Below, one piece after another: positions 5,184 through 33,641 of a stretch of DNA of 39,862 nucleotides. The stretch lies in contig JAPPLM010000008.1 of assembly GCA_028874195.1 (NCBI GenBank), forward strand, positions 1-39,862. The letters are read 5' to 3'. Numbering within the stretch: the first letter of the stretch is position 1; each line of letters begins with the position of its first letter. The notes beneath the pieces were generated by a model that was not told the DNA's origin, ran no database searches, and saw only the letters and a program-made list of their open reading frames with translations. The position numbers and the translations under genes are program-made. The stretch comes from Chloroflexota bacterium. GTDB taxonomy: Bacteria > Chloroflexota > UBA11872 > VXOZ01.

Positions 5184-6530
5184 TCAGGCGCCTTTAGTGA
5201 CATCATTCCATTCGATACGTAAGGTGTAGAATTTGTCCGCCATTCGTTCCAGCGCTTGGCGCGGCGAAACCTGGCGCAGCAGCACGCGTTGAATCTCGCC
5301 TTGAGAAAAGTGTTCCCATGCCTGGAACCAGGGCGCCTCTCGCCCTTCGTGCGTGCGGGCGACTTGCCGCTGTTGCAGATAGGCGCTCATGTCTTCTAAG
5401 CCACGCTCATTTGCCAATCGCCTCACTTGCGGATCCGCATAGAGCGACTCGTAGGCGCTGCCAAGTGAGCGGTTCACAAACCAGAAGAGCGGTGTAAAGT
5501 AACGATCTTCCCGATCGATCCCGCCGAGGTACTGCAAGAGTTCCCAGGCGGCATCTTTATTCCGGCTGGCTCTTGGAATTGCATAGAGTCGCGTCCACAT
5601 GACTGAGCCGCTCTGGGAAGGATCATTTCCCGGGAAAAGGGCAACGCGGCGAGAACCCGGGGCGCCGTCCTCCCGTTGGTTGAAGAGAAAGTTGTAACCC
5701 GGCTGGATAGTGAAGGCGGTTGGGTTGCGCAGTGCGGCTTCATAGCTGCTCCCCAGGACGTCGGCATGGATGATTTCGGTGCTGTAGATGCCGGCCAAGA
5801 GCCATGAAAGAGTCTGCTCCGCGGCGGAACCGGGGAGATGAAAGACAGGATTCAGGTTCTCATCGAAGAAGGCGCCGCCTCGCGCATAGACCATTGCCCA
5901 CCAATCGATGTTCGTGCTGGTGTGAAAACGGTAGGTGAGCCGTATCGGGTACTCCACCAAGCCCCGCCGCTTGATTTCGAGGGCCTGCTCCGTGACTTCC
6001 TCCCACGTCGCGGGTGGCAGCGTGATGCCGGCGTTCCGAAGGATTTCTTCGTCATAGACCCACAGCGCGCACTCCGTATAATACGGCAAGCCGTAGCTTA
6101 CCCCTTTACACTGGATACCCTCGGCTGCTTGCGGGATCATGGATTCACGGTATTGTTTGATACCGTTGAATTCGTCCAAGGGTTCAAGCCATTCGGCCTG
6201 AGCCCACGCGGCGAGATCGGTCTCCCGCACATAGACGGTGTCAAGCGGCTGCCCTTCGTTGAGCAGGCGACTGACAGTCTGGAAATACTCCTCGTCTATG
6301 ATCTCAGGCATAACGCGCAGGCCGGGGTACTGCGTACTGAATCGCTCCAGATTCCATAGCAGCAACTCAGGCTCGTAGCCCCAATAGACAAGACGTAGGT
6401 TAAGCGGCTCCTGCTCGTCTCCGAATGTCTGGCCGCGATTGCACGCAGCAGCCAGCAGGGCACTGGAAAGGAGGAGATGGCGACGGGAAAGCGGGTTGCC
6501 GGAGGACAGGGGTGCTTGTAGTCTGTTCAC
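5184..6530 (-). CDS. Tat-exported lipoprotein, ABC transporter substrate-binding protein (family 1)
   Basis: The ~448 aa protein has an SRRHLLL twin-arginine motif, a hydrophobic stretch and a lipobox ending LLAAAC. It should be folded in the cytoplasm, exported by Tat and anchored by lipid. The body is that of a family 1 extracellular sugar/oligosaccharide-binding protein: LRLVYWGYEPELLLWN, later YGLPYYTECALWVYDEEILRNAG, and a helical C-terminal lobe. I place the start at the GTG at 6530 because GGAG lies 6 nt upstream. The in-frame GTG at 6542 has no ribosome site. There is no permease or ATPase next to it, so the partner transporter must be elsewhere. The ligand is unknown; sugars are usual for the family. 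Confidence 0.85.
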   Translation of the reverse strand: MNRLQAPLSSGNPLSRRHLLLSSALLAAACNRGQTFGDEQEPLNLRLVYWGYEPELLLWNLERFSTQYPGLRVMPEIIDEEYFQTVSRLLNEGQPLDTVYVRETDLAAWAQAEWLEPLDEFNGIKQYRESMIPQAAEGIQCKGVSYGLPYYTECALWVYDEEILRNAGITLPPATWEEVTEQALEIKRRGLVEYPIRLTYRFHTSTNIDWWAMVYARGGAFFDENLNPVFHLPGSAAEQTLSWLLAGIYSTEIIHADVLGSSYEAALRNPTAFTIQPGYNFLFNQREDGAPGSRRVALFPGNDPSQSGSVMWTRLYAIPRASRNKDAAWELLQYLGGIDREDRYFTPLFWFVNRSLGSAYESLYADPQVRRLANERGLEDMSAYLQQRQVARTHEGREAPWFQAWEHFSQGEIQRVLLRQVSPRQALERMADKFYTLRIEWNDVTKGA

Positions 6531-6610
6531 TATTGACTCCACACCAAGAGGTTACTAGAACGTTACCACTCAAGGAGTGCTTGCGTCAACGGCAGCGTGC
6601 CGACAGGCGG

Positions 6611-7321: not shown

Positions 7322-8761
7322 CTACGGCCAGTTGCCGAGCTTCTCGCGGATGGTCGCGACACCCTCGTCAACGATGGCTTGCATAGTCGGCTGGATTTCC
7401 TTGAGGAACGTAGCCGCATCCTGCTCACCGGTCCAGAGCTTGGAGTCGCCGATGTCGTTAAGCAGCGTCGTAACCTGGCCGCCGGTGGGCAAGGATCCGA
7501 CGTTCCACTGCGGAACGGCCGTGGCGAGCGCATCCTGCGCCACAGAGATGCGCGGGTTGCTGTAGCCCTGGAAGGCCTCATTGATGAACGGCTCGATCTC
7601 GGGTATCCAAGCCGGGATACGGCGGACGAACTTGCCGAGACGACCTTCGTGTAGCAGCCAAGCCATGTAGTCAAACGCCGGCTCGCGCTTCTCGCTGCCG
7701 TAGACCAAACCGAGCTTGTGCTGGTTGGCATCAGGCGTGGAGCGTACCACGCGCGGCATGGGCGCCATCACGAAGTCCACGCCCTGCTCCAGCGCCTTGT
7801 CGGCGTACGTGAGGGGCAGACTGCGAGGTGCCGAAATCATCAAGGGCACCTGACCGGTCAGGAAGGGATTCTGGCCGCCGAAGTAGGTGTTGTTGCGATC
7901 GGCCTGCGGCGGAATCACCTGGTGCTTGTGGATCAGGTCGAAGAAGCTCGTGTAGCAGTCGATCATCGCTTCAGAGTCGCAGGTTGCCGTCGTCAGATCC
8001 TGCGAAATCCAGCTACACTCGTCGCCCCAGAGCAACTGCCAGGAGCACCAGTCGTGCGCATGGTTACCCATGGCCCATTGGCTTACCTTGTCGCCCTCGA
8101 ACTTGCGCAGCTTGACCATCACGTCCAGCCACTCGTCCCACGTCCACGAATTCGCCACATCTGCCGACGGATAATCAAGGCCCGCGGCATCAAAATACTC
8201 GGGGTTGATCATGACGACGTGGGCGTTGCCGCCGTGGCCCATGGGCAGCAAGTAGACTTGCCCCTGGAACATGGCATCGCGCTCGAGGAGATTCGGGTTG
8301 TAGACACTCAGGTCGAGGCCCCGTGCCTTAACCAGATCATCCATGTTCTGGGCGAGGTCCTGCATTACCTGCGCAAAAGCGCGGCGCGGGAACTCGGAGA
8401 TGTCCGGCGGAATGCCGCCGGCCTGCATGGTCTTGATCTTGGCGACGCGGTCCGCGGTACCACCGACCTGAGAGACGAGCTCAATGGTCGCGCCCTCGTT
8501 CTCAGCGATATACGGCTCGGCCATATTCTGCAAGAACTCTTGTTCGAGCTCGGTCGGGATCTTAAGGAAAGCGACGATGTTAACACTCGCCATTTCCTTG
8601 GCGGGCGCCGCTTCCTTCTGCTCCGGCTCGGCCGCTTTTTCTTCCATCGAGCCGGAGTCCGCCGGTGCTGCGCCTCCGCAGGCGGCGATGACTATAGACG
8701 AAGCCCCCAGCATGGCCGATCCTGCAAGTAGGCGTCGTCGAGACAACGTGCTATCGAGCAT
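7322..8761 (-). CDS. Tat-exported lipoprotein, ABC transporter substrate-binding protein
   Basis: This 479 aa binding protein carries SRRRLLAG (twin arginine), a hydrophobic run ending IVIAACGG (lipobox) and an Ala/Glu/Pro-rich tether (about residues 30-55). After that comes a family 1 solute-binding body: VNIVAFLKIPTELEQEF, GGIPPDISEFPRRAFAQVMQ, WTWDEWLDVMVKLRKFEG, and ITPW-type helices towards the end. It should capture a ligand, most likely a saccharide, outside the membrane and pass it to an ABC permease. AAGGAGG sits 7 nt upstream of the ATG, an excellent ribosome site, and a near-consensus promoter is at 8842-8870. No transporter membrane gene is adjacent. It is only distantly similar to the protein at 5184 and the pair at 9246/24522. 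Confidence 0.88.
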   Translation of the reverse strand: MLDSTLSRRRLLAGSAMLGASSIVIAACGGAAPADSGSMEEKAAEPEQKEAAPAKEMASVNIVAFLKIPTELEQEFLQNMAEPYIAENEGATIELVSQVGGTADRVAKIKTMQAGGIPPDISEFPRRAFAQVMQDLAQNMDDLVKARGLDLSVYNPNLLERDAMFQGQVYLLPMGHGGNAHVVMINPEYFDAAGLDYPSADVANSWTWDEWLDVMVKLRKFEGDKVSQWAMGNHAHDWCSWQLLWGDECSWISQDLTTATCDSEAMIDCYTSFFDLIHKHQVIPPQADRNNTYFGGQNPFLTGQVPLMISAPRSLPLTYADKALEQGVDFVMAPMPRVVRSTPDANQHKLGLVYGSEKREPAFDYMAWLLHEGRLGKFVRRIPAWIPEIEPFINEAFQGYSNPRISVAQDALATAVPQWNVGSLPTGGQVTTLLNDIGDSKLWTGEQDAATFLKEIQPTMQAIVDEGVATIREKLGNWP

Positions 8762-9245: not shown

Positions 9246-10640
9246 ATGCGCGGAGAACTCACACGACGGACGTTACTTGGCGGTAGCGCGGTAGCCGGTA
9301 CCGGCCTGCTGCTGGCGGCTTGCGGAGCTGCAACGACTGCTCCTGCCGGTGATGCGCCGGCCGCGGCGGATGCGCCACAGGAAGAGAAGACGACCGAGGC
9401 CCCGGCGGCTGCGGAGCAGAAGACGGTTAACTACCTCCATTACACCACCACGCAGGCGGTGTGGGATGAAAGCTTTGGCAGCCTTTTCGACACGTTCCGG
9501 GCGCAGAATCCCGACGTCGACCTTAAGGTGGACCCTGTTACCGGCGGTTTCGGCGTGCTCATCGATAAGGCCGTGGCCTCGTTTGCCGGCGGCATCGTCT
9601 TCGATGTCTATTACGGCCACTTTTCCTACATCAGCCAGTTCGCGACGGCGGAGATGATCCAGACGCTGGAGCCGTTCCTGTCTGCAGACCCCGAGGTCAG
9701 CAAGGACGACTACCACGTCTGGGCCACGGAGCGCATCCAGGGCCAGGTATACAGCATTGCGTGGTTCACCAACGGCAAAGAGGTTTGGTACAACGCCGAT
9801 CTTTACGCCGAGGCTGGTCTCAAGACTCCCAAGGAGCATGAAGCCGAGGGCACGTGGACCTGGGACACCGCGCTGGAAGGCGCGAAGAAGCTGACGAAGA
9901 TAGAGGGCAATAACGTCACGCAGTGGGGCTTCTTTACGCCCTCCTACTCATTCGGCTGGCACTGGATCCACCTGATGGCGTGGGGCGCAACCTGGTGGAA
10001 CGATGACTTTTCCGCGCCGGCCATGCTCACACAGGAGTTTGCCGAAGGCACGCAGTTTGCCGCGGACTTGGTGACCAAGCACCGCGTCATGCGCAGTCGC
10101 AGCGCCCCGAGTGAGGACGACGTGGCGCCGGACTTCAACACAGAACTCTTGGCGGCCCGCACCTGGGGCTCGTACGGTACGCGTACGATCCAAGAGCAGA
10201 TTATGTCCCAGGAAGAACCGTTCACGGTTGAAATGGAAATGCTGCCGAATGGCCCTGCCGGCCGGCAGGTTGTACAGTCCATCAACGCGAATTGGATCTC
10301 CAGTTCGTCGGCGCATCCGGACAGCGCCTGGGACTTCTACAAGTTCTGGCTGAGCCAGGAAGGCCAGAGCTTCATCGTGCCGCTGGGCGGTGGACGCTAC
10401 GTAGCGAACAAGAACTTCGAGGGCTTCACGGTCTACGACTACGAAGACCCCGCAGTCTACGCGCACGCTGCCGAGATCAGCGTCGAGCAGCGCCAGGTTG
10501 TGCAGCAGTCTGACGTCAACTCGGCATGGGCCGAGAACTGGGCGGCCTTGGAGCAACAGACCAAGACGGTCCAGGAGGTCCAGGAAGAGATGCAGCGGGT
10601 TGCCGAGAACGCGCTCCGCGAGGGCGGCTGCCTCTGCTAA
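9246..10640 (+). CDS. Tat-exported lipoprotein solute-binding protein, paralogue A with C-terminal GGCLC
   Basis: The 464 aa protein has LTRRTLLGG (twin arginine), a hydrophobic segment, the lipobox LLLAACG and an Ala/Pro/Glu tether. The mature part is a family 1 binding protein (YLHYTTTQAVW; GGFGVLIDKAVASFAG; YYGHFSYISQF; IQGQVYSIAWF; GTWTWDTALEGAKKL). It is the same length as, and closely related to, the protein at 24522-25916. Both end in an unusual Gly-Gly-Cys-x-Cys at the extreme C-terminus, absent from the two other binding proteins in the window. The start is fixed by AGAAGGAG 8 nt upstream. There is no permease nearby. A 30-bp perfect palindrome follows the gene (10724-10753). The ligand is unknown. 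Confidence 0.9.
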   Translation: MRGELTRRTLLGGSAVAGTGLLLAACGAATTAPAGDAPAAADAPQEEKTTEAPAAAEQKTVNYLHYTTTQAVWDESFGSLFDTFRAQNPDVDLKVDPVTGGFGVLIDKAVASFAGGIVFDVYYGHFSYISQFATAEMIQTLEPFLSADPEVSKDDYHVWATERIQGQVYSIAWFTNGKEVWYNADLYAEAGLKTPKEHEAEGTWTWDTALEGAKKLTKIEGNNVTQWGFFTPSYSFGWHWIHLMAWGATWWNDDFSAPAMLTQEFAEGTQFAADLVTKHRVMRSRSAPSEDDVAPDFNTELLAARTWGSYGTRTIQEQIMSQEEPFTVEMEMLPNGPAGRQVVQSINANWISSSSAHPDSAWDFYKFWLSQEGQSFIVPLGGGRYVANKNFEGFTVYDYEDPAVYAHAAEISVEQRQVVQQSDVNSAWAENWAALEQQTKTVQEVQEEMQRVAENALREGGCLC

Positions 10641-10723: not shown

Positions 10724-10753
10724 CGTAGGGGCACGACATGTCGTGCCCCTACG
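10724..10753. repeat. 30-bp perfect palindrome, family A
   Basis: CGTAGGGGCACGACA is followed directly by its exact reverse complement. Other copies of the family (GTAGGGGCACGA half-site) are at 15716-15743, 25946-25973 and 33082-33105. It forms a hairpin right after the binding-protein gene, without a U-run here. Confidence 0.85.
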
Positions 10754-11742: not shown

Positions 11743-12879
11743 ATGAGACGCAGGCCAATCAGGCGTATCGCCAGCATCGTGTGGGCGTCATTCTTGATGC
11801 TCACGCTGGTTTCTTTTGTGGCTTCGTGCGGAGGCGATGACGAGCGGGATGCGAAGCCGTCCGATGAGCCTGCGGCGCCGCAGGAGACGGTGATTCGCGT
11901 CGTCACCACGTCCAACATCATCGCCGATTGGGCCCGCATAGTCGGTGGCGACCGCGTCGAAGTCATTAGCCTCATGCCCGTAGACGTTGACCCGCACACG
12001 TTTCAACCCGGCCCCCGCGACGCCGCGCAGATTGCGGAAGCTGACGTGGTGCTGGCCGTTGGCCTGAGCATGGAGGGGTTCTGGCTGGAAGACCTCTTGA
12101 AAAACGTCGCTCGAGACGCGTCTATAGTCTTGGCGTTGGGTGACCTCATAGACCCTATCCATGCCCACTCTGATGATATGCATGGTGATGAGGAAGACGG
12201 CCACGAAAACGACGAAGATCATGAGCACGATGAAGACGGGGAGAATCACAAAGACGACGAAGAAGACGGGCATGACGACGACGGTCAGCATGAAGCTGAT
12301 GAAGACCATGAGCATGACGAAGACGAGCATGAGGGGCACGCCCACGTGCACGGTCCGGAGAACCCGCACTTCTGGTTTGATCCAATCCGCGTGAAGGTGG
12401 CCATCAATGCCATTGCGGCGCGGCTTTCAAGGCTGGATCCTGCGAATGCCAACGTGTACTTTACCAATGCGGTTGCATATAACGAGAAACTCGATGAACT
12501 GCACCACTGGACTGAGCACGAGGTCAGCGCAGTCGCCCCTGAGCGACGGTTACTGGTGACTTCCCACGACAGTTACCGCTACTTCGCCGAGCGCTACGGG
12601 TTCGAGGTGATCGGGGTAATCTTGGGTGTTTCTACCGATGTGGAAGCATCGGCGGAACACCTGGCGCACCTCGTGGAATTGGTAAAGGAGCGCGACGTGC
12701 CAGCGGTGTTCGGAGAGACGATCACGAGCGAACGCTTAGCGCAAGCCCTAGCTAACGAGACGGGCACGAAGCTCGTGCGGATCTACTCCGACTCGTTGGG
12801 AGCGGATGGCAGCGGCGCGGAGACATACATCAGCATGGTGCAGGAGAACGTGAAGCGCGTCGTCGAGGCCTTGCGATGA
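11743..12879 (+). CDS. Zinc/manganese ABC transporter substrate-binding lipoprotein, ZnuA-like
   Basis: The 378 aa protein has a signal peptide with lipobox FVASC. It is a cluster A-I metal-binding protein (TroA/ZnuA fold): TTSNIIADWARIVGGDRV, MPVDVDPHTFQPGPRD (first His ligand), NPHFWFDP (second His), TSHDSYRYFAERYGF (third His) and a C-terminal lobe with VFGETITSERLAQAL. Between the first two His ligands sits a long His/Asp/Glu-rich loop (about residues 140-205), a mark of zinc-type members thought to gather Zn2+. It is the first gene of a three-gene operon, overlapping the ATPase gene by ATGA. No Zur or MntR box is evident upstream. Zinc is favoured by the loop; manganese cannot be excluded. 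Confidence 0.93.
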   Translation: MRRRPIRRIASIVWASFLMLTLVSFVASCGGDDERDAKPSDEPAAPQETVIRVVTTSNIIADWARIVGGDRVEVISLMPVDVDPHTFQPGPRDAAQIAEADVVLAVGLSMEGFWLEDLLKNVARDASIVLALGDLIDPIHAHSDDMHGDEEDGHENDEDHEHDEDGENHKDDEEDGHDDDGQHEADEDHEHDEDEHEGHAHVHGPENPHFWFDPIRVKVAINAIAARLSRLDPANANVYFTNAVAYNEKLDELHHWTEHEVSAVAPERRLLVTSHDSYRYFAERYGFEVIGVILGVSTDVEASAEHLAHLVELVKERDVPAVFGETITSERLAQALANETGTKLVRIYSDSLGADGSGAETYISMVQENVKRVVEALR

Positions 12880-13691
12880 CGGCCAAAGGTGATGCGAATT
12901 CGTCCGCAGATATAGTCAAGACAAGCGGAAATGGAGATTCGTCCGCTGCGGAGCCGTCGCTCCTTGTTGAAGACCTGGTCGTAGACCGCGGCGAAGTGCA
13001 GGTGCTCAACGGCGTCACGTTCTCCGCGCAAAGCGGGCACATTATGGGCGTCATCGGCCCCAACGGCGCCGGCAAGAGCACGCTCTTCAATACTCTCACC
13101 GGGCTACTCCCGGCCCGGGAGGGACGGGTGCTCATCTGCGGCAAATCCATTCAAGACTCACAGGGTTCGGTTGCTTTCGTTCCCCAGCGGCAGAACATCA
13201 ACTGGGACCTGCCCATGACCGTGTGGGACATGGTCATGCTCGGGCGCACACGGCGCATCGGTTGGTTTCGCCGCCCGGGACGCGCAGACAGAGAGGCCGT
13301 AGAAGACGCCCTCAACCAGGTGTGGATGTGGGACAGACGGAATTCCTTGATTTCCGAGCTTTCCGGTGGTCAGCAGCAGCGCATCTTCATCGCCCGCGCC
13401 TTAGCCCAGGGCGTGGACGTGCTGATCTTGGATGAGGCTTTTCGAGGCGTGGACTTCACCTCACAAGAGGTTATGACGCTGGTGCTCCAGGAAATGCGGG
13501 ACGCCGGGAAGACTATCCTCCTGGCGTCTCACAACATCAGCTATATCCGCAAACTTACCGATGAATGCCTCTGCCTCAATCGCAGCGTCGTCGCTTGCGG
13601 TCCGACGGCAGAGGTGCTCGTGCCCGATGTCATGGAGGAGCTATATCGGTCGGTAGACATCTACCGCGCGTATGAGAGCGAGCAGAACTGA
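12876..13691 (+). CDS. Metal ABC transporter ATP-binding protein (ZnuC/MntB type)
   Basis: The 271 aa ATPase energises the uptake system. Walker A GPNGAGKST is at 61-69, the Q-loop VPQRQNINW follows, then the signature LSGGQQQR, Walker B VLILDEA and the switch His (LLASHN). The 'INWDLPMTVWDMVMLGR' stretch is characteristic of the Mn/Zn/Fe chelate subfamily. The first ~27 residues form a Ser/Asn/Asp-rich extension of low conservation; a later start is possible but the ATGA overlap with the binding-protein gene supports this one. It ends one base into the permease start, so the three genes are translationally coupled. Confidence 0.95.
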   Translation: MTAKGDANSSADIVKTSGNGDSSAAEPSLLVEDLVVDRGEVQVLNGVTFSAQSGHIMGVIGPNGAGKSTLFNTLTGLLPAREGRVLICGKSIQDSQGSVAFVPQRQNINWDLPMTVWDMVMLGRTRRIGWFRRPGRADREAVEDALNQVWMWDRRNSLISELSGGQQQRIFIARALAQGVDVLILDEAFRGVDFTSQEVMTLVLQEMRDAGKTILLASHNISYIRKLTDECLCLNRSVVACGPTAEVLVPDVMEELYRSVDIYRAYESEQN

Positions 13692-14512
13692 TGGACGTCA
13701 TTTCCGATGTCCTCGTTGCGCCGTTCCAATACGGTTTCATGGTGCGGGCGCTGATTGTCTCGCTCTTGGTGGGCGTCATGTGTCCCATGCTGGGCGCTTA
13801 CGTGGTGACCAAGGGCCTGGGATTCATGGGGGACGCGCTCTCCCACGCCGTGCTGCCCGGCATGGTGGCGGCTTTTCTAATTGGCGTCAATCCCTTCTTG
13901 GGGGCGATTCCCATGGGAATCGCCGTCGCTCTACTTAGCGGCTACCTGATTAAGCGCGCGGGTGTCAGCGCCGATACGTCGGTGGGAATTCTCTTTGCGG
14001 GGCTTTTTGCGCTCGGCGTGGTGATGCTGTCGTTTACGCGGGGACTGCGGGTGAGCTTGGAGGACATCCTGCTGGGTCAAGTGCTGGGGGTGACAACGCG
14101 CGACGTGGTCGTCACCGCCGTCATGGCCGGGGCCGTGTTGGCGGTTCTCTATCTGCTGCACAAGGAGTTCGTCTTCGCCAGCTTTGATCCCGCGGGAGCT
14201 TCGGTCATCGGGCTGCCCACGCAAGGCCTGGATTACCTCCTCCTGGCCCTGCTGGCAGTGGTCATCGTGCTGGCAATTCAAGCGGTGGGTATCGTGCTGG
14301 TGTTGGCGATGCTTATCACACCGGCAGCGACGTCGTTCCTGCTGGTGCGCAACTTTCCCAAGGCTATGTTTACCGGGTCGTTCTTAGGAGTCATTTCGGC
14401 CGTGGCGGGGCTCTATCTCTCGTATCATTACAATCTGCCGTCCGGGCCGTCTATGGCTTTGCTGGCAACCGTGATCTTCGCGGTTGTGGTAGCGGTGAAG
14501 AAGGCGCGATAG
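13691..14512 (+). CDS. Metal ABC transporter permease (ABC-3 family, ZnuB/MntC type)
   Basis: A 273 aa integral membrane protein with about eight hydrophobic segments. It shows family features such as MLGAYVVTKGLGFMGDALSHAVLPGM, GILFAGLFALGVVMLS and MLITPAATSFLLV. It forms the channel for the metal delivered by the upstream binding protein and driven by the ATPase. The start ATG overlaps the ATPase stop (TGATG). It is the last gene of the operon; 190 nt follow before the deacetylase gene, with no clear terminator seen. Confidence 0.95.
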   Translation: MDVISDVLVAPFQYGFMVRALIVSLLVGVMCPMLGAYVVTKGLGFMGDALSHAVLPGMVAAFLIGVNPFLGAIPMGIAVALLSGYLIKRAGVSADTSVGILFAGLFALGVVMLSFTRGLRVSLEDILLGQVLGVTTRDVVVTAVMAGAVLAVLYLLHKEFVFASFDPAGASVIGLPTQGLDYLLLALLAVVIVLAIQAVGIVLVLAMLITPAATSFLLVRNFPKAMFTGSFLGVISAVAGLYLSYHYNLPSGPSMALLATVIFAVVVAVKKAR

Positions 14513-15715: not shown

Positions 15716-15743
15716 GTAGAGGCACGACATGTCGTGCCTCTAC
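15716..15743. repeat. 28-bp perfect palindrome, family A variant
   Basis: GTAGAGGCACGACA plus its exact inverse. Compared with the copy at 10724, one base of the stem (G to A) is matched by a compensating change (C to T) in the other arm, so pairing is conserved. Confidence 0.85.
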
Positions 15744-17356: not shown

Positions 17357-17836
17357 CTAGTTGACAAACTGACCGCCGTGCAACCGTCTGAAGACGTCTC
17401 TGACCTTATTCCGCAATTGCGTCGGTGTGTGCTCCATAAAGACCCGATAGATTTCCTCGCTCCCTAATTTATGCTCGAGTTCCATATGGAGGCTAGCGAA
17501 TCCATACTTTGCGTAGAGCGCTCGCAACGCCGACAGCCATGCACTATCCCCCATCGCTTCACGCAGCTTCACGAGGAAGTGCAAGCCCATAGAATACAAG
17601 CAAAGGTCTAACACGTGGCCTCTTTCTTCCAAGTCGTGCAGACTATTGAACCCTAGATCACGGCAGTCAGAATTCTCCACTCTCGGGATGTCCTGGCTAG
17701 CGTCATTGAAATGGATCGCTACATACTCAGCGCCACCTTCAGAGAACCAGCGTGGGCCAAAATAGAAGTAGTAGTGAGCCGTCTCATGTTGCACAATTCT
17801 AGGCTCCAACGCTGCAAATGGTGATAGCGACATCAT
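17357..17836 (-). pseudogene. C-terminal gluzincin peptidase part of the frameshifted secreted protein 1
   Basis: This 159 aa frame carries a clear metalloprotease core: QHETAHYYF (HExxH, zinc and catalytic residues) and, 18 residues on, WFSEGGAEYVA, providing the third ligand as in MA-clan, peptidase-MA-like proteins. By itself it lacks a signal peptide and the upstream strands of the peptidase fold, which sit at the end of the preceding frame (17833-19155). The two frames overlap by ATGA, so reinitiation is conceivable. However, a third frame across the joint (about 17835-17875) reads like the missing linker (EVTTWHDDVAIT), suggesting one ancestral protein interrupted by small indels. An assembly error is an alternative. 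Confidence 0.7.
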
Positions 17837-19155
17837 CGTGCCAAGTGGTGACCTCGAGGTCCTCCGTCGAAAACAGCAAGGATCACGTCATCCACCGGAA
17901 ACGGCAATTCCCAGAACTTCTCGGATCTGCGCACGGCTCTCTCCAGGTCTGCGAGCACCACCCGGCCAACACGGCTCGAGAGATTATGAACCACCCACAC
18001 GTTCACAGCGCCCTTATGAGGCAGGACTATCGTCGACGAGGCAGTAGAATAGGGATCGAAGAGTTGATCGGAGTCCAAACGCGCGCCGCCTGCCGCAATG
18101 AGAAAAACGCGCTCTCTCTCGTCCAGTCCATCGAGGAACCACGGTGTTGTCATTAGACGCTCTAACCCATCCGGGCTATTGCCGGCAATGTCTCTCATTG
18201 CGTAGACCAAGAACAGGTCTGCCTCCTTGGGCGGGTAAGGGATGAGGTTCAACACAAGACGCGCAAACTCTGGGCCCGAATGCCGATTGTGAGGCCAAGT
18301 GAGCATTTCTTGCATTAGAGAGATTCCATAGCGAGACTCTATGAGTGTGAGGCCGTCCACAACCCAGGGTGCGGTCGCCAACTCTGTCGCGAAGTCCAGG
18401 TCGACGCGATGTGCTATATAGTGCAGATGTTCGACCGCCTCTCGCTCCCAACGATCGATTCCGTCCGCGATCCAAGGGAGCGCAACTAGGTGGGGAACGA
18501 ACGCAGCGGCTACCAGATCAAGACTGCCTATAGAGCTGATTACACTTGCTTCATCGGGGCGCATGTCCTCGTCGAATATCCATGCCCACCCCAGCAGCAC
18601 CTTCGCCAACTTTGAGTTGTAACTGTCGATCTGCTTCAAGAAAGTGAATGCCAAACTCTCATCATCGTTTAGGCCGTCACGATACCATGCGGAGACTGAT
18701 GCTCTTTTGGCCAGAGAAGAACCGAATACTGGCGCTGGGGTGGGTGTGGGAGAAGGCGCAATTGTGGGGATTGGTGTAATTGTCGCACCCGGTATTGGGG
18801 TAGGAGTGGGAGTCGCGATGCCGCCGCCGGGGGCGTAGTCCGCTTCCCACTCGAAGCGTTCGGAGTTGAGCCGTTGGACGAGGCCGTTGGGGCCGTTGAC
18901 CCAGGTGCGGTAGCCGTCGGTGAAGGCGGTCCAGTTGTCGGCCTTGCGCCAGACCAGCAGGCCGCCGGTGGTATGCTGCTCGCTGTTGCCGTTGGCGGCG
19001 TAGCGCTCGTTCTCCAGACACTCGCCGACGATGTCATGGCCGATGAGATCGCGAATGGTCTTGAAGCCGAAGACGAACTGGCATTCCGCTGCCGTGACGG
19101 TCGTAGGCAAGAGGAAGAAGAGTGCAGTCGCGGTAAGAATTGCAAGCCTTTTCAT
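17833..19155 (-). CDS. Secreted modular protein 1: shared head, Pro/Thr linker, helical repeats (peptidase end frameshifted off)
   Basis: From the ATG at 19155 (GGAGAGG just upstream) the protein is ~440 aa. It has a Sec signal peptide (KRLAILTATALFFLLP...AAEC), then the ~80 aa head shared with the genes at 19525 and 22328: two Cys (AEC, GEC), TTGGLLVWRKADNWTAFTDG and WVNGPNGL. A Pro/Thr-rich linker follows (about residues 110-145). Next come helical repeats of the 'PW(I/V/F)xDG(I/L)' type (LPWIADGI, APWVVDGL, TPWFLDGL). The last ~60 residues look like the entry strands of the gluzincin domain found in the next frame. It probably faced the cell exterior as a surface or secreted peptidase. The head's role is unknown. 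Confidence 0.75.
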   Translation of the reverse strand: MKRLAILTATALFFLLPTTVTAAECQFVFGFKTIRDLIGHDIVGECLENERYAANGNSEQHTTGGLLVWRKADNWTAFTDGYRTWVNGPNGLVQRLNSERFEWEADYAPGGGIATPTPTPIPGATITPIPTIAPSPTPTPAPVFGSSLAKRASVSAWYRDGLNDDESLAFTFLKQIDSYNSKLAKVLLGWAWIFDEDMRPDEASVISSIGSLDLVAAAFVPHLVALPWIADGIDRWEREAVEHLHYIAHRVDLDFATELATAPWVVDGLTLIESRYGISLMQEMLTWPHNRHSGPEFARLVLNLIPYPPKEADLFLVYAMRDIAGNSPDGLERLMTTPWFLDGLDERERVFLIAAGGARLDSDQLFDPYSTASSTIVLPHKGAVNVWVVHNLSSRVGRVVLADLERAVRRSEKFWELPFPVDDVILAVFDGGPRGHHLAR

Positions 19156-19240
19156 TTGCCTCTCCGATTTGCGCAAATCCTACTGCCGCTTTACAGATAT
19201 GCGACTTCAATTGAACCGACTACTTGCCCTCGGACACCTA

Positions 19241-19489
19241 CTACTCGCGTGGATTGTTGAAGGGATTCCAGTATATGAGAATCCGATTGCGATTGATGTC
19301 GGTGACGTACAGATTGTCGTTCTCATCGAACGTCGCTGAGTAGGGCATGGAACCAAAGTCGTGGAAGAAACCGCTGGGCGCGGTGTCGGGGCCGAGCGGA
19401 TTGTGGTAGAAAGCGACGAATCTTGGGCCTAAGTAACTATTAAAGCCCACCGCCATTCTATTGCTGCTGTCAAAAGCGGGCTCCCACAT
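19241..19489 (-). pseudogene. Detached C-terminal NHL segment of secreted protein 2
   Basis: This frame encodes one to two NHL/propeller blades: SATFDENDNLYVTDINRNRILIYWNPF. It follows the large NHL gene (19525-21948) in a different frame. Reading the same frame upstream through the large gene's stop gives a continuous FEPNQAINVSGHALVDRVG..., so it is the true C-terminus of that protein, cut off by an indel near 19545-19555 (GGCGCGTTTGAGCC). Confidence 0.7.
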
Positions 19490-19524
19490 TCCAACCCTGT
19501 CAACCAGCGCGTGACCGCTGACAT

Positions 19525-21948
19525 TTATTGCTTGATTCGGCTCAAACGCGCCGCAAAGTACTTACGCTCAAGGCGCCCCAATTCAGTGACTACCTTGGTC
19601 GCGGCCGGCGCATAGACGACCGAATGGTTGTCGATCGGGATCGAGCCGGCGGCAAAGATGAGGAGACGCTTGTTGCCGGCCACCTCCAGCGAATGGTCCG
19701 AGACATAGAGATTACCGAGCCGGTCATACGCGAGTCCGCCCGGGAAGCAGAGCATGTCGGCTGTCGGCGGTCCGGTATGGTCCTCAGGATTGTCCCACGC
19801 GCTGAAGTGCGCTTGACGGTTGCACTTGTTTCCCGTTGCCTCCTTTTGTCCGAGGATCACGTCCACTACGGGATTAGAGAGCGGGTTGCGAATCCGCAAG
19901 ACGCGGTGGTTATGAGAATCGCTGATCCAGATCATATCCCCGTTGCCTACCGGCGCGATACTGCGTATGTATGGGCCGAGGGTAACCGTGCTGCTCGACC
20001 TATGGCCGGACCCTGGGATGGTAAAAGTGGTTGGGCCAAGCCAGACAGTCTCATTTGTGCCGAGTACCGGGATGCTTATACCCTCGGTGCGAATTGTCTT
20101 TATTGGGACTGACTGCGCCGTCAGCGGCAATTGATAGACTTTGATGAATCGCGTGGTATCAGTACCTAAGACCCACAGTCTGCCTGCTCCATCCACCTTG
20201 ATGCGGCCACAGCACGTAAGTGGACTCTGCTGCCAATACGTCTCGCCAATGACGCCGTCGGCCGCCTGGCCGTTTCTGAGGTTCCTCACGTCATTCCAGA
20301 ACATCAACCGCTTCCGGTCTGCCGCGATGAGTTGATCAGCGTACACGGCTACACCGGCCACCCAGCCCAACTCTCTGCCGCTCTTGAAATTGTGCCCGCC
20401 GGGTGGGTAGAAGAGCCGTTTGTCGGCGTTGCCAACGGCTGCATTGGTAGCATCAGCATTGGGGGCTGGAAAACGAAGGACGTCTTGGGTAAACAGTTTG
20501 ACCGAAACCAGCACATTGGCGTCGGCATCGATGCCAATTCCGCCGCCGCTGCGGCTGGGGACGTCGCCGTGTGCCCTTCGGGTGCCGTTGCCATTCAGGT
20601 CCCACAGTTCAAAGGTTTTGGCGTCGGAGTTGTTGACCCACATGCTGTTTTGGTTCGGGTGCATCTCCAGCGAGGTCGGACGATTGAAATCGGAGCCGAA
20701 TACTGACGCCGCGCTCATGCCAGACGTGAACGGAGGGTGGAATACCAATATGCGGTCGTTGCCCTTATCGGCGACGTAGAGCCAGCCGTTGCTCGCGACT
20801 CTGACTGCTGCCGGAGAATCGAGTTGACTGAGCCCGAATCCTTTTGTGCTGCTCTGGAAACTGGGTTGTCCGAGCACTAAGTCAGCTTGCTTGGCTATAA
20901 CTCCGGTTGCGGCGTTTAGGGGGAAGCGGAGCACGCGGTGATTGGCGGCATCCGCCACCCAGAGATTGCCACTGGGATCAATCTCTACGCCGCTGGCGAA
21001 GCCGCCAATGCTGAGCCGCAGTTCCCAGGATTGAAAGCATAGGGTGTCGCTGGTAGGCGCGAACCCGGGGTTGTCGCGGTTGCAGACGATGCCTGTGAAA
21101 TCGCCCTGCCCCCAAACTTCATCCGCAATGGTGTCGGTCTCAAACGGGCGAGTGTACTTGAGGACGCGGTTGTTGAGAGAGTCCGGCACGTACAGATTGC
21201 CCGCGGCGTCAAGCGCCATCGTCACATAACTGTGCTCCTCATCCGGTGAAATGGCCACGTCGGGGATACCGCAGAGCGTTTCCGCGCTGGCCGCAGCGCG
21301 GAAGGGGAAGTTCTGCACATTGGAGTCTCCATTGCAGGCGGCATGATCGAAGAGCGACGGTTGTCCGAGCACAATATCCGCCCAACAGGGGCCGGAGCCG
21401 GCATAGCACTTGCTCAGGTCTACGCCGAGTATGCGGCTATTGCCCGCGTCCCAGATGTACGCCCGGCCCGGGGAAACCGACCGGTCGACGATCACCCCTC
21501 CTGGATTGAAAACCTTGTACGGCACAACTTGGTCGTCGGTGATCTGCGAGAAGTCCGGCTGGCCGATGATGACGTCTGCCCAGAGATCGCCGGCAACGCC
21601 ACGCACGGCTGAAGTCTGAACAAGCGGGGGCTCTATCTCCCAAGGAAAGCGCTCGGTGTTCAGTCGTTGCTCCAAGCCGTTGGGGCCGTTGATCCAGGTG
21701 CGGTAGCCGTCGGTGAAGACGGTCACGTTATCGGCCTTGCGCCAGACGAGGAGGCCGCCGGTGGTCTGTTGCTCGCTATTGCCGTTGGCGGCGTAGCGTT
21801 GATCCTCCAAGCATTCGCCGACGATGTCGTGGCCGATGAGGTCGCGCAACGTCGCAAAGCCGAGGACGAACTGGCACTCCGCCGCCGCTGCGGAAATTGG
21901 CAAGAGGAAGAAAAGAGCGAGTGCGAGCAGTACTGCTAGCCTCTTCAT
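19525..21948 (-). CDS. Secreted modular protein 2: shared head plus NHL-repeat beta-propeller, C-terminus frameshifted
   Basis: 807 aa. Sec signal peptide (MKRLAVLLALALFFLLP), then the shared head (AECQFVLGF ... GECLEDQ ... TTGGLLVWRKADN ... WINGPNGLEQRL, to about residue 105). The rest is a large NHL-type propeller with recurring 'xxIxGQPxF' turns (VIIGQPDF, IVLGQPSLF, LVLGQPSF, VILGQKEA) and blade cores such as NLYVPDSLNNRVLKY, NLWVADAANHRVLRF and DMIWISDSHNHRVLRI. NHL domains bind proteins, RNA or glycans; an extracellular ligand-binding or scaffolding role is likely. The ATG is preceded by AAAGGGACC. The final blades continue in another frame (19241-19489), so the annotated stop is probably a mutation or sequence error. 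Confidence 0.85.
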   Translation of the reverse strand: MKRLAVLLALALFFLLPISAAAAECQFVLGFATLRDLIGHDIVGECLEDQRYAANGNSEQQTTGGLLVWRKADNVTVFTDGYRTWINGPNGLEQRLNTERFPWEIEPPLVQTSAVRGVAGDLWADVIIGQPDFSQITDDQVVPYKVFNPGGVIVDRSVSPGRAYIWDAGNSRILGVDLSKCYAGSGPCWADIVLGQPSLFDHAACNGDSNVQNFPFRAAASAETLCGIPDVAISPDEEHSYVTMALDAAGNLYVPDSLNNRVLKYTRPFETDTIADEVWGQGDFTGIVCNRDNPGFAPTSDTLCFQSWELRLSIGGFASGVEIDPSGNLWVADAANHRVLRFPLNAATGVIAKQADLVLGQPSFQSSTKGFGLSQLDSPAAVRVASNGWLYVADKGNDRILVFHPPFTSGMSAASVFGSDFNRPTSLEMHPNQNSMWVNNSDAKTFELWDLNGNGTRRAHGDVPSRSGGGIGIDADANVLVSVKLFTQDVLRFPAPNADATNAAVGNADKRLFYPPGGHNFKSGRELGWVAGVAVYADQLIAADRKRLMFWNDVRNLRNGQAADGVIGETYWQQSPLTCCGRIKVDGAGRLWVLGTDTTRFIKVYQLPLTAQSVPIKTIRTEGISIPVLGTNETVWLGPTTFTIPGSGHRSSSTVTLGPYIRSIAPVGNGDMIWISDSHNHRVLRIRNPLSNPVVDVILGQKEATGNKCNRQAHFSAWDNPEDHTGPPTADMLCFPGGLAYDRLGNLYVSDHSLEVAGNKRLLIFAAGSIPIDNHSVVYAPAATKVVTELGRLERKYFAARLSRIKQ

Positions 21949-22079
21949 TGGTCCCTTTTGTCTCCTTATGCGCCAATCCCGATTCCATTCCTAACGCATA
22001 TCATCGATGTGGCAATTGACTATACGTGAATCCAGCAGAAACAATGAACACGTCACTCCCCACGAGGAATTGTTCGCCA

Positions 22080-22220
22080 TCACGGCAACGTGTCACGCAA
22101 CTCTAGCGCTCTCCCAGGCATTTCCTCCAGCTTTACAATTAGCGCTGTTTGGTCATCCCCGACACCGCCACGCAGCATTGTACGAGACAAGATACCCTGC
22201 AATCGGCTGGGCCGGGTACG
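22080..22220 (-). pseudogene. Possible remnant of a PP2C-type phosphatase C-terminus
   Basis: The minus strand reads ILSRTMLRGGVGDDQTALIVKLEE and then a short tail to a stop at 22080. The 'GG.GDDQTALIVKL' string resembles the last strand of PP2C-family phosphatases (usually '...G..DN.TVIVV.L'). Nothing upstream in this frame fits the rest of the family. The remainder of 21949-22327, between two secreted-protein genes, holds nothing I recognise. Low confidence. Confidence 0.25.
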
Positions 22221-22327
22221 CTGTTTAGGCGTGCCACGGAATGAGGGCTGTGGGGTCAAGCGCCTCAACGGTCTAAGAAAAGGCATGGCAAATCGCGCTG
22301 AGAGGCTACTTCGATTCAGCGCGTATT

Positions 22328-24127
22328 CTATCTTCTGAAATTAGCTGCGATATCTCTGATTACAGACACCTCATACGCAGTGAGGCCGTCCTGGATCCAA
22401 GGCTTGGCTGCCACGACTTGGAACGCTTCCGTTGATTCCCGGGCGAGCCTATACAGTACAAGTACGCTATGCGTATCAGAGTCGGTAATTCCGTCTGCTA
22501 CCCAGGGCAGGGACCAAATCAACTGAGCGGTATCGGGTTTCTCCCACTCTAGTCGCACGAGCGCCACAATTGCTCTTTGGCCATCTCTAATCCCACCAGC
22601 CAACTTGGGGTGGGAGACGACGTAGCGCAGGTCGGCCTTGTCCTCGAACAGTGTGCGAAGAGTGTCCAGAACTTCAGCGTCTTCCATCTCCAGCGTATCC
22701 AGAAAAGGCATAGAGAGGAATTGATTAGCTATCGATTGATCCCAGCCGCTAATGTCCACGAAGTTTTCAACGGCTTTGAGTTCCCAATAGGTGAGACCGT
22801 CTTGCATCCATGGCTTGCCGACCAAGCTCTCTAACAACTCATATGATTTTTCGGCAAGTCTGGCCAGGCTTTTGATTGTGCGTTCTTCAAACTCAGACGG
22901 GTGAGCCGTCGCTATGTGCAAGGTCCTGTTAATGGGCCTACCCAATCCGTCTTGTACCCAGGGAAGGGCTTCAATTATCGCTGCGGCTCTCGGGTTATTT
23001 ATTCTAAGAATTAGCAAGTGGATGAATGGAAGATGGTCATCAGTTATACCGGCAAGGAGTCTTGGGTGTGACAGAATCTGTCGTATACTGCCTGGGCGTG
23101 TCCTTTCTAGGTTGGACAACCCACTAACTACCATGTAATCATCGCCATCCTCTTTCGTCTGTAGGAAGGGCATGCGGAGCATCTGCAAGACTGCCGCCTC
23201 GTCATGGAGGGCTAGGTAGATGATGTCTGAGAGTGATGGGCCGGGATAGGGGTCGTTTCCAAAGTGCTCCATCCAGGCCCAGAATACCGGCTGCGATGCC
23301 AAAGCGAGGTGCTGCAAGTCATTGACGTTGCTCGGTCTTTCGCTGAACCGAGGTAGCTTTCTGATCGCAGCCGCAGACTCTGGATCCCGGGTCTCTAAGT
23401 AGAGCACGGGTAAGAGTGCGAACTTGTCACTTGTAATCCCGTTGCGCAATTCCGGATGAGCCAGAAGGTCCTGTAGCCCCGCGGCATCGGAAATTAAGAG
23501 TTCATTGAGCACTTGCCATGCGGTCTCAGTACCATACCCAAGGCCTACCATGAATGGCATTCTCATAACGCGGAGAGCCATCGCTTCGTCTCTATAGGTC
23601 AAGGCAAGCACTTGACGGTAGAGCATCGGCAGAAAGGCGCCGTTTACCGATAGGCTTTCAGACTGGATCCAGGGCTTTTGCATTAGCTCCCAGAAGACTT
23701 GCGGAGATGCTTGCTGCAGTTTTCGCAGGCTTTGTGCAGTCTCGCCTTCCCAGTAGTCCTGAAGCCCATCACTGACCCAAGGCAAAACCGCTATCGCGTT
23801 TTCTGCTTCCCAGGGCAAGAACTCAATGTTCAGGCGCTGTTCCAGGCCGTTCGGACCGTTTACCCACGAGCGGTAGCCGTCGGTGAAGGCGGTCCAGTTG
23901 TCGGCCTTGCGCCAGACCAGCAGGCCGCCGGTGGTATGCTGGAGGCCGTCGCCGTTGGCGCCGTGGTGCTGGTTCTCCAGGCACTCGCCCACGACGTCGT
24001 GGCCGATGAGATCGCGCAGCGTCTTGAAGCCGAGGACGAACTCGCATTCCGCTGCCGCCGCAGTGGTAGGCAGTAGCAGGAACAGAGCAGAGGCGAAGAG
24101 AGCCGCGAAACGCTTCAGTGGTAACAA
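22328..24127 (-). CDS. Secreted modular protein 3: shared head plus long helical-repeat solenoid (intact)
   Basis: About 600 aa. A signal peptide (KRFAALFASALFLLLP) and the shared head (AECEFVLGF, GECLENQHH, TTGGLLVWRKADNWTAFTDG) occupy the first ~110 residues. The remaining ~490 residues are alpha-helical repeats of ~35 aa whose linkers cycle through four types: LPWVxDG, KPWxQDGLT, MPF(L/M), HPxLxxGI. This gives about three and a half rounds. It has no peptidase domain, unlike protein 1. There is no ATG at the position where the paralogues start. I choose the TTG at 24127 (GGAAAAG upstream); TTG 24151 or CTG 24118 are alternatives. It is probably an extracellular binding scaffold. The repeat family is not one I can name. 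Confidence 0.8.
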   Translation of the reverse strand: MLPLKRFAALFASALFLLLPTTAAAAECEFVLGFKTLRDLIGHDVVGECLENQHHGANGDGLQHTTGGLLVWRKADNWTAFTDGYRSWVNGPNGLEQRLNIEFLPWEAENAIAVLPWVSDGLQDYWEGETAQSLRKLQQASPQVFWELMQKPWIQSESLSVNGAFLPMLYRQVLALTYRDEAMALRVMRMPFMVGLGYGTETAWQVLNELLISDAAGLQDLLAHPELRNGITSDKFALLPVLYLETRDPESAAAIRKLPRFSERPSNVNDLQHLALASQPVFWAWMEHFGNDPYPGPSLSDIIYLALHDEAAVLQMLRMPFLQTKEDGDDYMVVSGLSNLERTRPGSIRQILSHPRLLAGITDDHLPFIHLLILRINNPRAAAIIEALPWVQDGLGRPINRTLHIATAHPSEFEERTIKSLARLAEKSYELLESLVGKPWMQDGLTYWELKAVENFVDISGWDQSIANQFLSMPFLDTLEMEDAEVLDTLRTLFEDKADLRYVVSHPKLAGGIRDGQRAIVALVRLEWEKPDTAQLIWSLPWVADGITDSDTHSVLVLYRLARESTEAFQVVAAKPWIQDGLTAYEVSVIRDIAANFRR

Positions 24128-24282
24128 TCGAGCGTCTTTTCCAGCGGACAACGCTTTTGCTTGTCACGTGAGCAGCATAACCATGAATTAGGCTTCGTGT
24201 CCACTCAGATGGAGGGTGCGCCCGTAAAGGGAACGGCTTCTTGCGGATAGAGGGGTCAAGGCACCCAATTAAACGAGTCCGC

Positions 24283-24310: not shown

Positions 24311-24521
24311 ACCCTCAGTGGTATTCCTATTGATGGGGCACTTGACGTTGCGTTGGTAGCGGTTCGAGCCAGGATGCGTTCTGCAACGATTGAGAAAGGA
24401 GAGTAGGCAATTTCATTGGCTTGAAGCAGCACTGCACACGAGCCCCGTAGGCGCGCCAATAAGCGGCGCGCATTTCATTGATGCTTTTTGATCAGTTGAT
24501 ACTCACTTGGAGGAAGAGAAC

Positions 24522-25916
24522 GTGAAAGCGACAGTAACACGACGAACTTTGCTCGGTGGCAGCTTGGTGGCTGGCGCGGGTATGCTGGCGGCCGCGTGCG
24601 GACAGGCCATGCCTGCCGCGCCCGCAGAGGGTGAAGCCCCGGCGGCCAAGGAAGAGGCGGCCAAGCCGGCCGAAGAGACCAAGGCCATGGAGCCGAAGAA
24701 GGTCGTCTATCTGCACTACACCACCACGCAGGCGGTGTGGGAAGAGAACTTCGGGCAGATTTTCGATAACTTCCGGGCGCAGTTTCCCGAAGCAGAGCTG
24801 CAAGTGGATGCCGTGACCGGCGGTTTTGGCGTGCTCATCGAGAAGGCCGTGGCCTCGTTCGCGGGCAACGTGCCCATCGACATGTATTACGGCCACTTTT
24901 CCTATATCAGCCAGTTTGCCCAGCAGGAGATGATCCAGCCGCTGGACCCGTTCATCGCGAAAGATGCCGACGTGGCCCGCGAAGACTTCTACGATCATGC
25001 GCTGGAGAAAATCCAGGGCCAGATCTACGGCATTGCCTGGTTCAACCAGGGCAAGGAATTCTGGTACAACGCGGACCAGGTGACCGAGGCCGGTCTGACG
25101 TCACCGAACGACTTGGTAGCGGAAGGCAAGTGGACGTGGGACGCCGCGCTTGAGTTTGCGCAAAAGCTCACCAAGCGGGAAGGCGCGAACACGACCCGCT
25201 GGGGTTTCTTCTATGCCTACCACTCCACTGGCTGGTTTGGACATCACCTGAAGGCATGGGGCGCTGACTGGTGGAACGATGACATCAGCGCGGCGACGAT
25301 GGATACGCCCGAGTTTGCTGCTGCGGTGCAGGCCGCCCAGGACTTGGTCGTGAAGCATGAGGTTTCGCCCCGCATTAGTAGCCCAAGCGAGAATGACGCG
25401 AAGGCGTCCTTTGAAGAAGAGACTCTTGCTTCGCGTTTGGCGAGCGGCGCCAATACGCGCAGCTTCCAAGCGAATATCATGTCCAAGGATAAGCCCTTCA
25501 ATATCGGTCACGCGTTGCTGCCCGAGGGCCCTGGAGGTCGCAACACGATTCAGGCGCTCAATGCGAACTACCTTAGTTCATCGGCGCCGCAAGCCGATCT
25601 GGCATGGGAACTTTACAAGATTCTCGTTGGTCCCGAATCCGACCAGCAGATTGCCCGGCTCGGCGGCCGCCGCTACACGGCCAGCCGCAAGCAGAGCCCG
25701 GTGACCCTGTGGCCGTATGAGAATGCCGACGTCTACGCTCAGATGGCGGAACTCAGTGATGGCGCCCAGCAGATTGTGAAGCAATCTGAGGTCAATGGCG
25801 CTTGGAGCCAGGGCTGGAAGGACATCGAGGACGGCGTCCGCACCATCCAAGAGGTGCAGGAAGAACTGCAGCAAGTAGCCACGATTGCCCTGGAAGAGGG
25901 CGGCTGTATCTGCTAA
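24522..25916 (+). CDS. Tat-exported lipoprotein solute-binding protein, paralogue B with C-terminal GGCIC
   Basis: 464 aa from the GTG at 24522, chosen because GGAGG lies upstream and it aligns with the start of the paralogue at 9246. It carries VTRRTLLGG, the lipobox MLAAACG and an Ala/Pro/Glu/Lys tether. The mature domain shares long identical stretches with paralogue A (YLHYTTTQAVW, AVASFAG, YYGHFSYISQFA). The C-terminus again ends Gly-Gly-Cys-x-Cys. It should bind a solute outside the membrane for an ABC importer encoded elsewhere. The two copies differ in the second lobe (for instance SPRISSPSENDAK against MRSRSAPSEDDVA), so ligand specificity may have diverged. A palindrome with a T7 run ends the transcript (25946-25980). 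Confidence 0.9.
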   Translation: MKATVTRRTLLGGSLVAGAGMLAAACGQAMPAAPAEGEAPAAKEEAAKPAEETKAMEPKKVVYLHYTTTQAVWEENFGQIFDNFRAQFPEAELQVDAVTGGFGVLIEKAVASFAGNVPIDMYYGHFSYISQFAQQEMIQPLDPFIAKDADVAREDFYDHALEKIQGQIYGIAWFNQGKEFWYNADQVTEAGLTSPNDLVAEGKWTWDAALEFAQKLTKREGANTTRWGFFYAYHSTGWFGHHLKAWGADWWNDDISAATMDTPEFAAAVQAAQDLVVKHEVSPRISSPSENDAKASFEEETLASRLASGANTRSFQANIMSKDKPFNIGHALLPEGPGGRNTIQALNANYLSSSAPQADLAWELYKILVGPESDQQIARLGGRRYTASRKQSPVTLWPYENADVYAQMAELSDGAQQIVKQSEVNGAWSQGWKDIEDGVRTIQEVQEELQQVATIALEEGGCIC

Positions 25917-25945: not shown

Positions 25946-25980
25946 GTAGGGGCACGATATATCGTGCCCCTACTTTTTTT
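25946..25980 (+). terminator. Terminator made from a family A palindrome plus T7
   Basis: GTAGGGGCACGATA and its exact inverse (25946-25973) are followed by seven T (25974-25980), a textbook intrinsic terminator 30 nt after the binding-protein stop. It is a clear case of a dispersed palindrome serving as a terminator. Confidence 0.88.
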
Positions 25981-33055: not shown

Positions 33056-33081
33056 GCGCCATGCGGTTTGGCAAGTCTAGA

Positions 33082-33105
33082 AGGGGCACGATATATCGTG
33101 CCCCT
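33082..33105. repeat. Family A palindrome after oxidoreductase copy 1
   Basis: AGGGGCACGATA plus its exact inverse, 24 bp, 27 nt after the stop codon. It has no U-run. Confidence 0.8.
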
Positions 33106-33228
33106 ACGTCAGTATGGTGGCGCTTCAATTGCTAGACAAAGCGTGTTCCCGCGCAGGTGAATTCTCGGCATTGTAGCATCTGGTGATTTTCGCTGTGCAC
33201 GGAACAAGCCGGCCCTGAAGCGCGCAAG

Positions 33229-33545: not shown

Positions 33546-33641
33546 TGCCGTAATACACCTCTCGGCGTGGACTGGCAGCTTTTCTCAATCATGCCGCATT
33601 CAGGCTGCGCCACGACCTCACACATAGGAGCGAAATCCCCC

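Follow-up and report, generated by a model that had tools for sequence, protein, structure and literature searches.

What role is served by two cysteine residues placed at the very end of an exported binding protein? The question is raised by a 39,862-nucleotide stretch of DNA (the window), which makes up contig C32 of a Chloroflexota genome (G000; 3.5 Mb, completeness 98.3%), where a first-pass annotation had pointed out that two paralogous solute-binding lipoproteins both terminate in E-G-G-C-(L/I)-C. This end can be read directly in both genes. Protein A (464 amino acids; 9246–10640, forward strand) closes with the codons GAG GGC GGC TGC CTC TGC TAA at 10620–10640 (EGGCLC), which place Cys(-3) at 10629–10631 and Cys(-1) at 10635–10637, and protein B (24522–25916, forward strand) closes with GAG GGC GGC TGT ATC TGC TAA at 25896–25916 (EGGCIC), with Cys(-3) at 25905–25907 and Cys(-1) at 25911–25913. 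The interval originally marked in protein A, 10602–10640, contains the tail but also includes the final part of the last helix; the tail itself begins at 10620. The remaining two binding proteins in the window, both on the reverse strand, were correctly described as lacking such an end, the one at 7322–8761 finishing in GNWP and the one at 5184–6542 in VTKGA. The open reading frame of protein B is listed from a TTG at 24507; judged by eye, the GTG at 24522, which follows a GGAGGAAGAG stretch, is the likelier start.

All four binding proteins of the window belong to the Pfam family SBP_bac_1, and the two tailed proteins are ordinary members of it (PF01547, E 9.5e-18 for protein A and 1e-19 for protein B; 65.7 and 72.1 bits against a curated cut-off of 26). 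SBP_bac_1 is their sole Pfam match at E 0.001, and neither is matched by an NCBIfam model at the same threshold. Both carry a signal with a lipobox (RR...AAC-G, by eye), which in protein A reads LAAC-G and has Cys26 (9321–9323) as the predicted lipid anchor. The cysteines of the two proteins are limited to this lipobox residue, Cys(-3) and Cys(-1). The aligned lipobox Cys is found in 40 of the 42 family members described below, the remaining two lacking that end.

Our analyses of the genome of the window have identified 70 places that resemble protein A, eight of which constitute a family with 34–57% identity to it; the next full-length-like match in the same genome shows 29% identity. The family is present in six to nine copies per genome in each of the six genomes of one Chloroflexota genus that were examined. 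A profile (A1) built from seven own-genome members was run on 101 relatives, 41 genomes of the class and 400 genomes from across the phylum (these samples overlap). At E 1e-60 all matches in the three samples came from the six genomes of the genus; in the phylum sample, where at most 4 candidates were scored per genome, no such match was found in the 394 genomes from outside the genus. The best match outside the genus scored 198 bits, compared with at least 348 bits for family pieces of at least 260 residues. No member was found in the viral contigs that were scanned, and of the 27 loci obtained in a scan of genome contigs, 16 belong to the family and lie in four Chloroflexota assemblies; the family is thus carried by Chloroflexota MAGs, for which a sponge origin is suspected. 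The 47 family pieces that were collected comprise 45 places from the 101 relatives, the fragment G005:C95 and G005:C410, which was found by pattern. Three of these are cut before the C-terminus, leaving 44 readable C-termini (the G005:C410 fragment included); in the fragmented genome G005 some pieces may be gene halves, and each counted C-terminus is a separate place. Excluded from the counts was an N-terminal fragment (52% identity over 95 residues) that lies where contig C20 ends and is probably the missing start of the gene on contig C34.

All 44 readable C-termini share the end G-C-[LIV]-x, the last residue being Cys in 23 of them and Gln, Trp, Arg or Gly in the other 21. The conserved GGCxC tail of the first-pass annotation is thus upheld in respect of Cys(-3), which is family-wide, but what the family as a whole conserves is G-C-[LIV]-x, the last Cys being confined to one clade. 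At the nucleotide level, the pattern GGN GGN TGY NTN TGY TRR gives 23 matches in the six genomes, each of which is the 3' end of a family member (places were paired with family C-termini by eye, and the 23rd, G005:C410, by translation), compared with 3 matches for a reversed control pattern. The codons of the tail vary synonymously (GGC/GGT, TGC/TGT) and the residues are kept. An alignment was made of 42 members, leaving out G005:C95, which is without the hairpin discussed below, the C410 fragment and the three cut pieces, and keeping the fragment C215 and a paralogue whose in-frame TAG was read as X. Pairwise identity within it falls as low as 27%, and 41 of its 414 columns are invariant, G(-4) and Cys(-3) among them. 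Within the clade with a terminal C-x-C, each of the last six columns except position -2 is invariant, vs. 5 of the 24 preceding columns, and in its sister clade the G-C pair alone is fixed among the last six. The conservation of the tail is hence real and beyond chance. The suggestion that it reflects one recent duplication is rejected because the paralogues diverged long ago and occur in six species, and homologues across this whole range of identities retain Cys(-3). Selenocysteine or read-through at the tail was likewise rejected, 24 of 25 stops being TAA or TAG and the single TGA (G000:C34) corresponding to TAA in its two orthologues. A hairpin-type paralogue at G000:C59:17278–18609 contains one in-frame TAG.

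The position of the second cysteine divides the family into two groups. All 42 aligned members, in which both sites are readable, contain Cys(-3); 22 have in addition the terminal Cys and 20 have instead a Cys within the C-terminal half, in a beta-hairpin with the motif W-[DN]-x-x-C, and no member has both or neither. At the hairpin position the 22 C-x-C members carry Phe or Ile, viz. Phe255 of protein A (10008–10010) and an Ile of protein B (25284–25286), and the pairing of a hairpin Cys with the C-terminal Cys is accordingly absent from the window proteins and present in all 20 sister-clade members. When members with identical ends are thinned, 35 remain, 19 of the C-x-C and 16 of the hairpin type. 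Further cysteines beyond the lipobox are bound to subfamilies (an adjacent pair in three C-x-C members and extras in part of the hairpin clade). In a tree of 41 members (C215 was left out) and 7 outgroup proteins, the two types form sister clades with support values of 100/99 and 99/97, separated by one change. The 42 cases are not 42 independent events, because the either/or pattern rests on a single evolutionary switch. Within the clades, pairwise identity has means of 57 and 58% and minima of 40 and 38%, and on this comparison of sequences the covariation of the second cysteine appears as one event that has been kept across diverged clades.

These observations are most simply accounted for by a disulfide staple at the C-terminus of an ordinary SBP_bac_1 protein, of which the tail would be a lineage-specific form and in which Cys(-3) would supply one side of an intramolecular bond made once the protein has been exported. 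In the hairpin clade, Cys(-3) would pair with the Cys of the W-[DN]-x-x-C hairpin, so that the two sites touch and the end of the last helix is pinned there; we consider this bond probable. On one branch, the hairpin Cys and the terminal Cys would have been exchanged, and both window proteins fall in the C-x-C clade. Since their only other cysteine is that of the lipobox, Cys(-1) is the simplest partner left, and Cys(-3) would most probably bond to it in a small C-x-C ring capping the docked tail. The job of such a staple would be structural, viz. to immobilize the C-terminal end of a protein that is anchored by a lipid. The complete account, with its C-x-C ring and stabilizing role, has in our judgment an even chance of being correct. 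Of the roles that the annotation had listed for the tail, a disulfide is the best fit, the second cysteine being terminal or in the hairpin in every aligned member, but this regularity traces to one event on the tree.

Predicted structures are consistent with a docked tail. AlphaFold2 models were made of protein A (C-x-C type) and of L103 (hairpin type) from 40-row alignments of window and named-record proteins, with mean pLDDT values of 93.2 and 93.1, respectively. In both models Cys(-3) and Leu(-2) form a strand or bridge past the last helix, and the tail is modeled as ordered and docked. The last residues are less confident in the C-x-C model than in the hairpin model (mean pLDDT of the last block 76 vs. 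88). This lower confidence counts against the proposed reading, as does the fact that C-x-C disulfides are strained and uncommon. The fold itself is that of a two-lobed solute-binding protein (SBP): the best match of the protein A model in Foldseek is 5f7v (E 3.7e-25), and VIA likewise ranks this entry first for the L103 model (Z 40.2, 363 residues, rmsd 2.6). The nearest solved folds are those of Lmo0181 (5f7v), Lin1841 (5ysb, 5yse) and GacH (3jzj). The five best VIA rows align only as far as residue 385–387 of the L103 model, short of Cys388, which a few lower rows reach. Among solved structures, searches with protein A, L118, L119, A3 and L170 revealed no chain with both cysteines in the alignments listed, most of which end before the C-terminus, and a search with L168 returned no match at E 1e-15.

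A similar arrangement is seen in other SBPs. The comparison set consisted of SBP-like open reading frames of at least 300 residues, viz. 39 family rows and 78 others, a C-terminal Cys being one within the last 28 residues. Among the 78, a hairpin Cys and a C-terminal Cys occur together in 9, the hairpin Cys occurs alone in 11 and neither is present in 58, and none has the C-terminal Cys alone. Thinning at about 70% identity leaves 56 rows (8, 7, 41 and 0, respectively), for which the association of the two cysteines has a Fisher p of 4.5e-6, a value that ignores kinship and for which the windows were set after the pair had first been seen. The nine paired proteins are from Actinomycetota (L115, L119 and L168), Alphaproteobacteria (L118, L167 and L170), a genome of the window's class (L074) and other bacteria (L111 and L112); L116 also has a C-terminal Cys and falls below the 300-residue floor. 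The 78 include ten plasmid proteins, eight of them picked among the 40 matches listed for L118 and two among the 15 listed for protein A, and this sample leans, because the eight were found as matches of a protein that is itself paired; with the plasmid proteins removed, all six SBPs with a C-terminal Cys remain paired and 11 of 68 have the hairpin Cys alone. A C-terminal Cys without a hairpin Cys is found, among the compared rows, only in the C-x-C clade, which has its own second Cys.

Because all nine of the other SBPs with a C-terminal Cys also have a hairpin Cys, as in the hairpin clade of the family, a hairpin-to-C-terminus disulfide looks, from the sequences, to be recurrent in the SBP fold. 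Hairpin cysteines have other uses as well, since 7 of the 56 thinned proteins carry one alone. In these other proteins the C-terminal Cys lies inside the last helix, about 12 residues before the position of Cys(-3), whereas in the family it follows the helix in G-C-[LIV]-x, and the hairpin Cys is about 3 residues further on than that of the family. Since both positions are shifted, their putative staple would be analogous to that of the family and not the same pair.

The gene neighborhoods of the family are atypical of binding proteins. No match to BPD_transp_1 (PF00528) was found within 5 kb of the eight own-genome members; the member on C34, the gene of which is cut by the contig end, has one within 10 kb. 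A permease gene in the same cluster, by which an ABC importer cluster is recognized, was not found for the own-genome members of the family, in contrast to L167 and L168, the two paired SBPs with annotation, which are followed by a permease gene; the lack of an adjacent permease match also sets the family apart from known SBP_bac_1 sugar-binding proteins. A regular expression of our own for permeases, which was used without a positive control, flagged none in the family flanks. The scarcity is unusual for SBPs and is true of the whole SBP set of the genome, not just of the tailed family: of the 70 SBP-like places, one lies less than 5 kb from a BPD_transp_1 match and three, including the family member on C34, lie less than 10 kb from one. 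In genome G000 these 70 places stand beside 18 BPD_transp_1 matches, binding proteins being mostly uncoupled from permease genes. A distant permease may serve the family proteins.

Co-occurrence with thiol oxidoreductases, which had been put forward as a check on the tail, was observed, in that matches to DsbB and to DsbD/CcdA are present in all six genomes of the genus, but it is not specific to the tail. VKOR and Thioredoxin_4 were matched in none of the six, which counts against the disulfide reading. The DsbB copy of the genome of the window has two Cys pairs (by eye), and oxidation of the tail cysteines after export is possible given the DsbB match in every genome. The same genomes contain AhpC-TSA/TlpA-like matches with one in-frame TGA, which were found in all six. 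Genes for TlpA-like thioredoxins whose active site contains an in-frame TGA are present in G000 (L158, at G000:C5:14326–16662, and L159 and L160) and in G001 (L161); the site reads U-P-V-C in three of these four regions, from the two genomes, and variants occur elsewhere. A CcdA-like gene adjoins the TlpA-like gene on C5. A tRNA-Sec above the Rfam cut-off was found in five of the six genomes, and every control genome gave only a below-cut-off match. Judged by these sequence features, the TGA-bearing TlpA-like genes look like extracytoplasmic selenoproteins.

Other functions of the C-x-C pair have to be weighed against an intramolecular bond. The two thiols, being at the chain end of members without a hairpin Cys, might instead form an intermolecular disulfide, joining one binding protein to another or to a partner on the cell surface; as none of the eight own-genome paralogues lies less than 5 kb from a BPD_transp_1 match, a role outside classical transport is open. 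However, the sister clade pairs the same Cys(-3) with an internal Cys and the models show the tail docked rather than free, and we regard such a link as unlikely. C-x-C is a common thiolate pair, and binding of a soft metal ion (zinc, copper or mercury) or of a metalloid, in a sensor or scavenger, would suit the position of protein A near genes at 11743–14512 that resemble the metal importer ZnuABC (by eye). Protein B is not beside ZnuABC-like genes (by eye), no His, Asp or further Cys, one Glu aside, is invariant among the last six positions of the clade, and the sister clade is without C-x-C; this makes a metal site distinctly improbable. The tail as a sorting or modification signal, for example for lipidation of the C-terminal Cys, would fit an end that is short, fixed and C-terminal. 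A general sorting signal is rejected because the pattern is absent from all other proteins of the six genomes; all 23 GGCxC-stop matches fall within one family whose proteins already bear a lipobox, and a signal of this kind is scarcely credible.

A redox-active C-x-C served by the extracytoplasmic thiol system (selenocysteine-containing TlpA-like lipoproteins, CcdA and DsbB) is in keeping with the presence of matches to all these components in the six genomes. Set against it are the unannotated family flanks, which to 8 kb show no thiol-system gene (by eye), and the absence of C-x-C from the sister clade; we know of no use for a redox pair on a binding protein, and we consider this role very improbable. 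The sulfhydryl oxidase Erv2 reportedly uses a C-terminal C-x-C as a shuttle and resembles the window proteins in having the motif in its C-terminal tail, but these, with SBP_bac_1 as their one Pfam match, are not FAD oxidases. A docked tail acting as a reversible C-x-C switch, serviced by the same lipoproteins, CcdA and DsbB, we put forward as a long shot; if true, the switch would alter the state or the partners of a surface binding protein without neighboring permeases.

The intramolecular disulfide reading leaves the identity of these proteins unchanged. The value of the family lies in the natural experiment that it provides, in which every member seen has kept the same C-terminal Cys, while the likely partner of this Cys is found in some members inside the chain, in a hairpin, and in others at the last residue. 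More widely, the data suggest that a C-terminal disulfide recurs among the binding proteins of a very large family, and this could be of use in interpreting or stabilizing them. In the searches made of open-licence papers, no title or opening part of an abstract named a G-C-[LIV]-x tail with an exchanged partner.

Some further features of the window were noted. A 28-base palindrome (gtaggggcacga...tcgtgcccctac) occurs at 10725–10752, 15716–15743, 25946–25973 and 33080–33107, its half-sites giving eight matches in the window vs. 0.2 expected; there is a copy after each of the two tailed genes, and some sister genomes have identical copies after tailed genes of their own. The region 17833–24151 encodes three adjacent proteins that share an N-terminal domain (AEC-x-FV-x-GF...LIGHD) and differ in their C-terminal parts (by eye), and the genes at 32015–33055 and 33567–34682 are tandem, very similar oxidoreductase-like genes (by eye).
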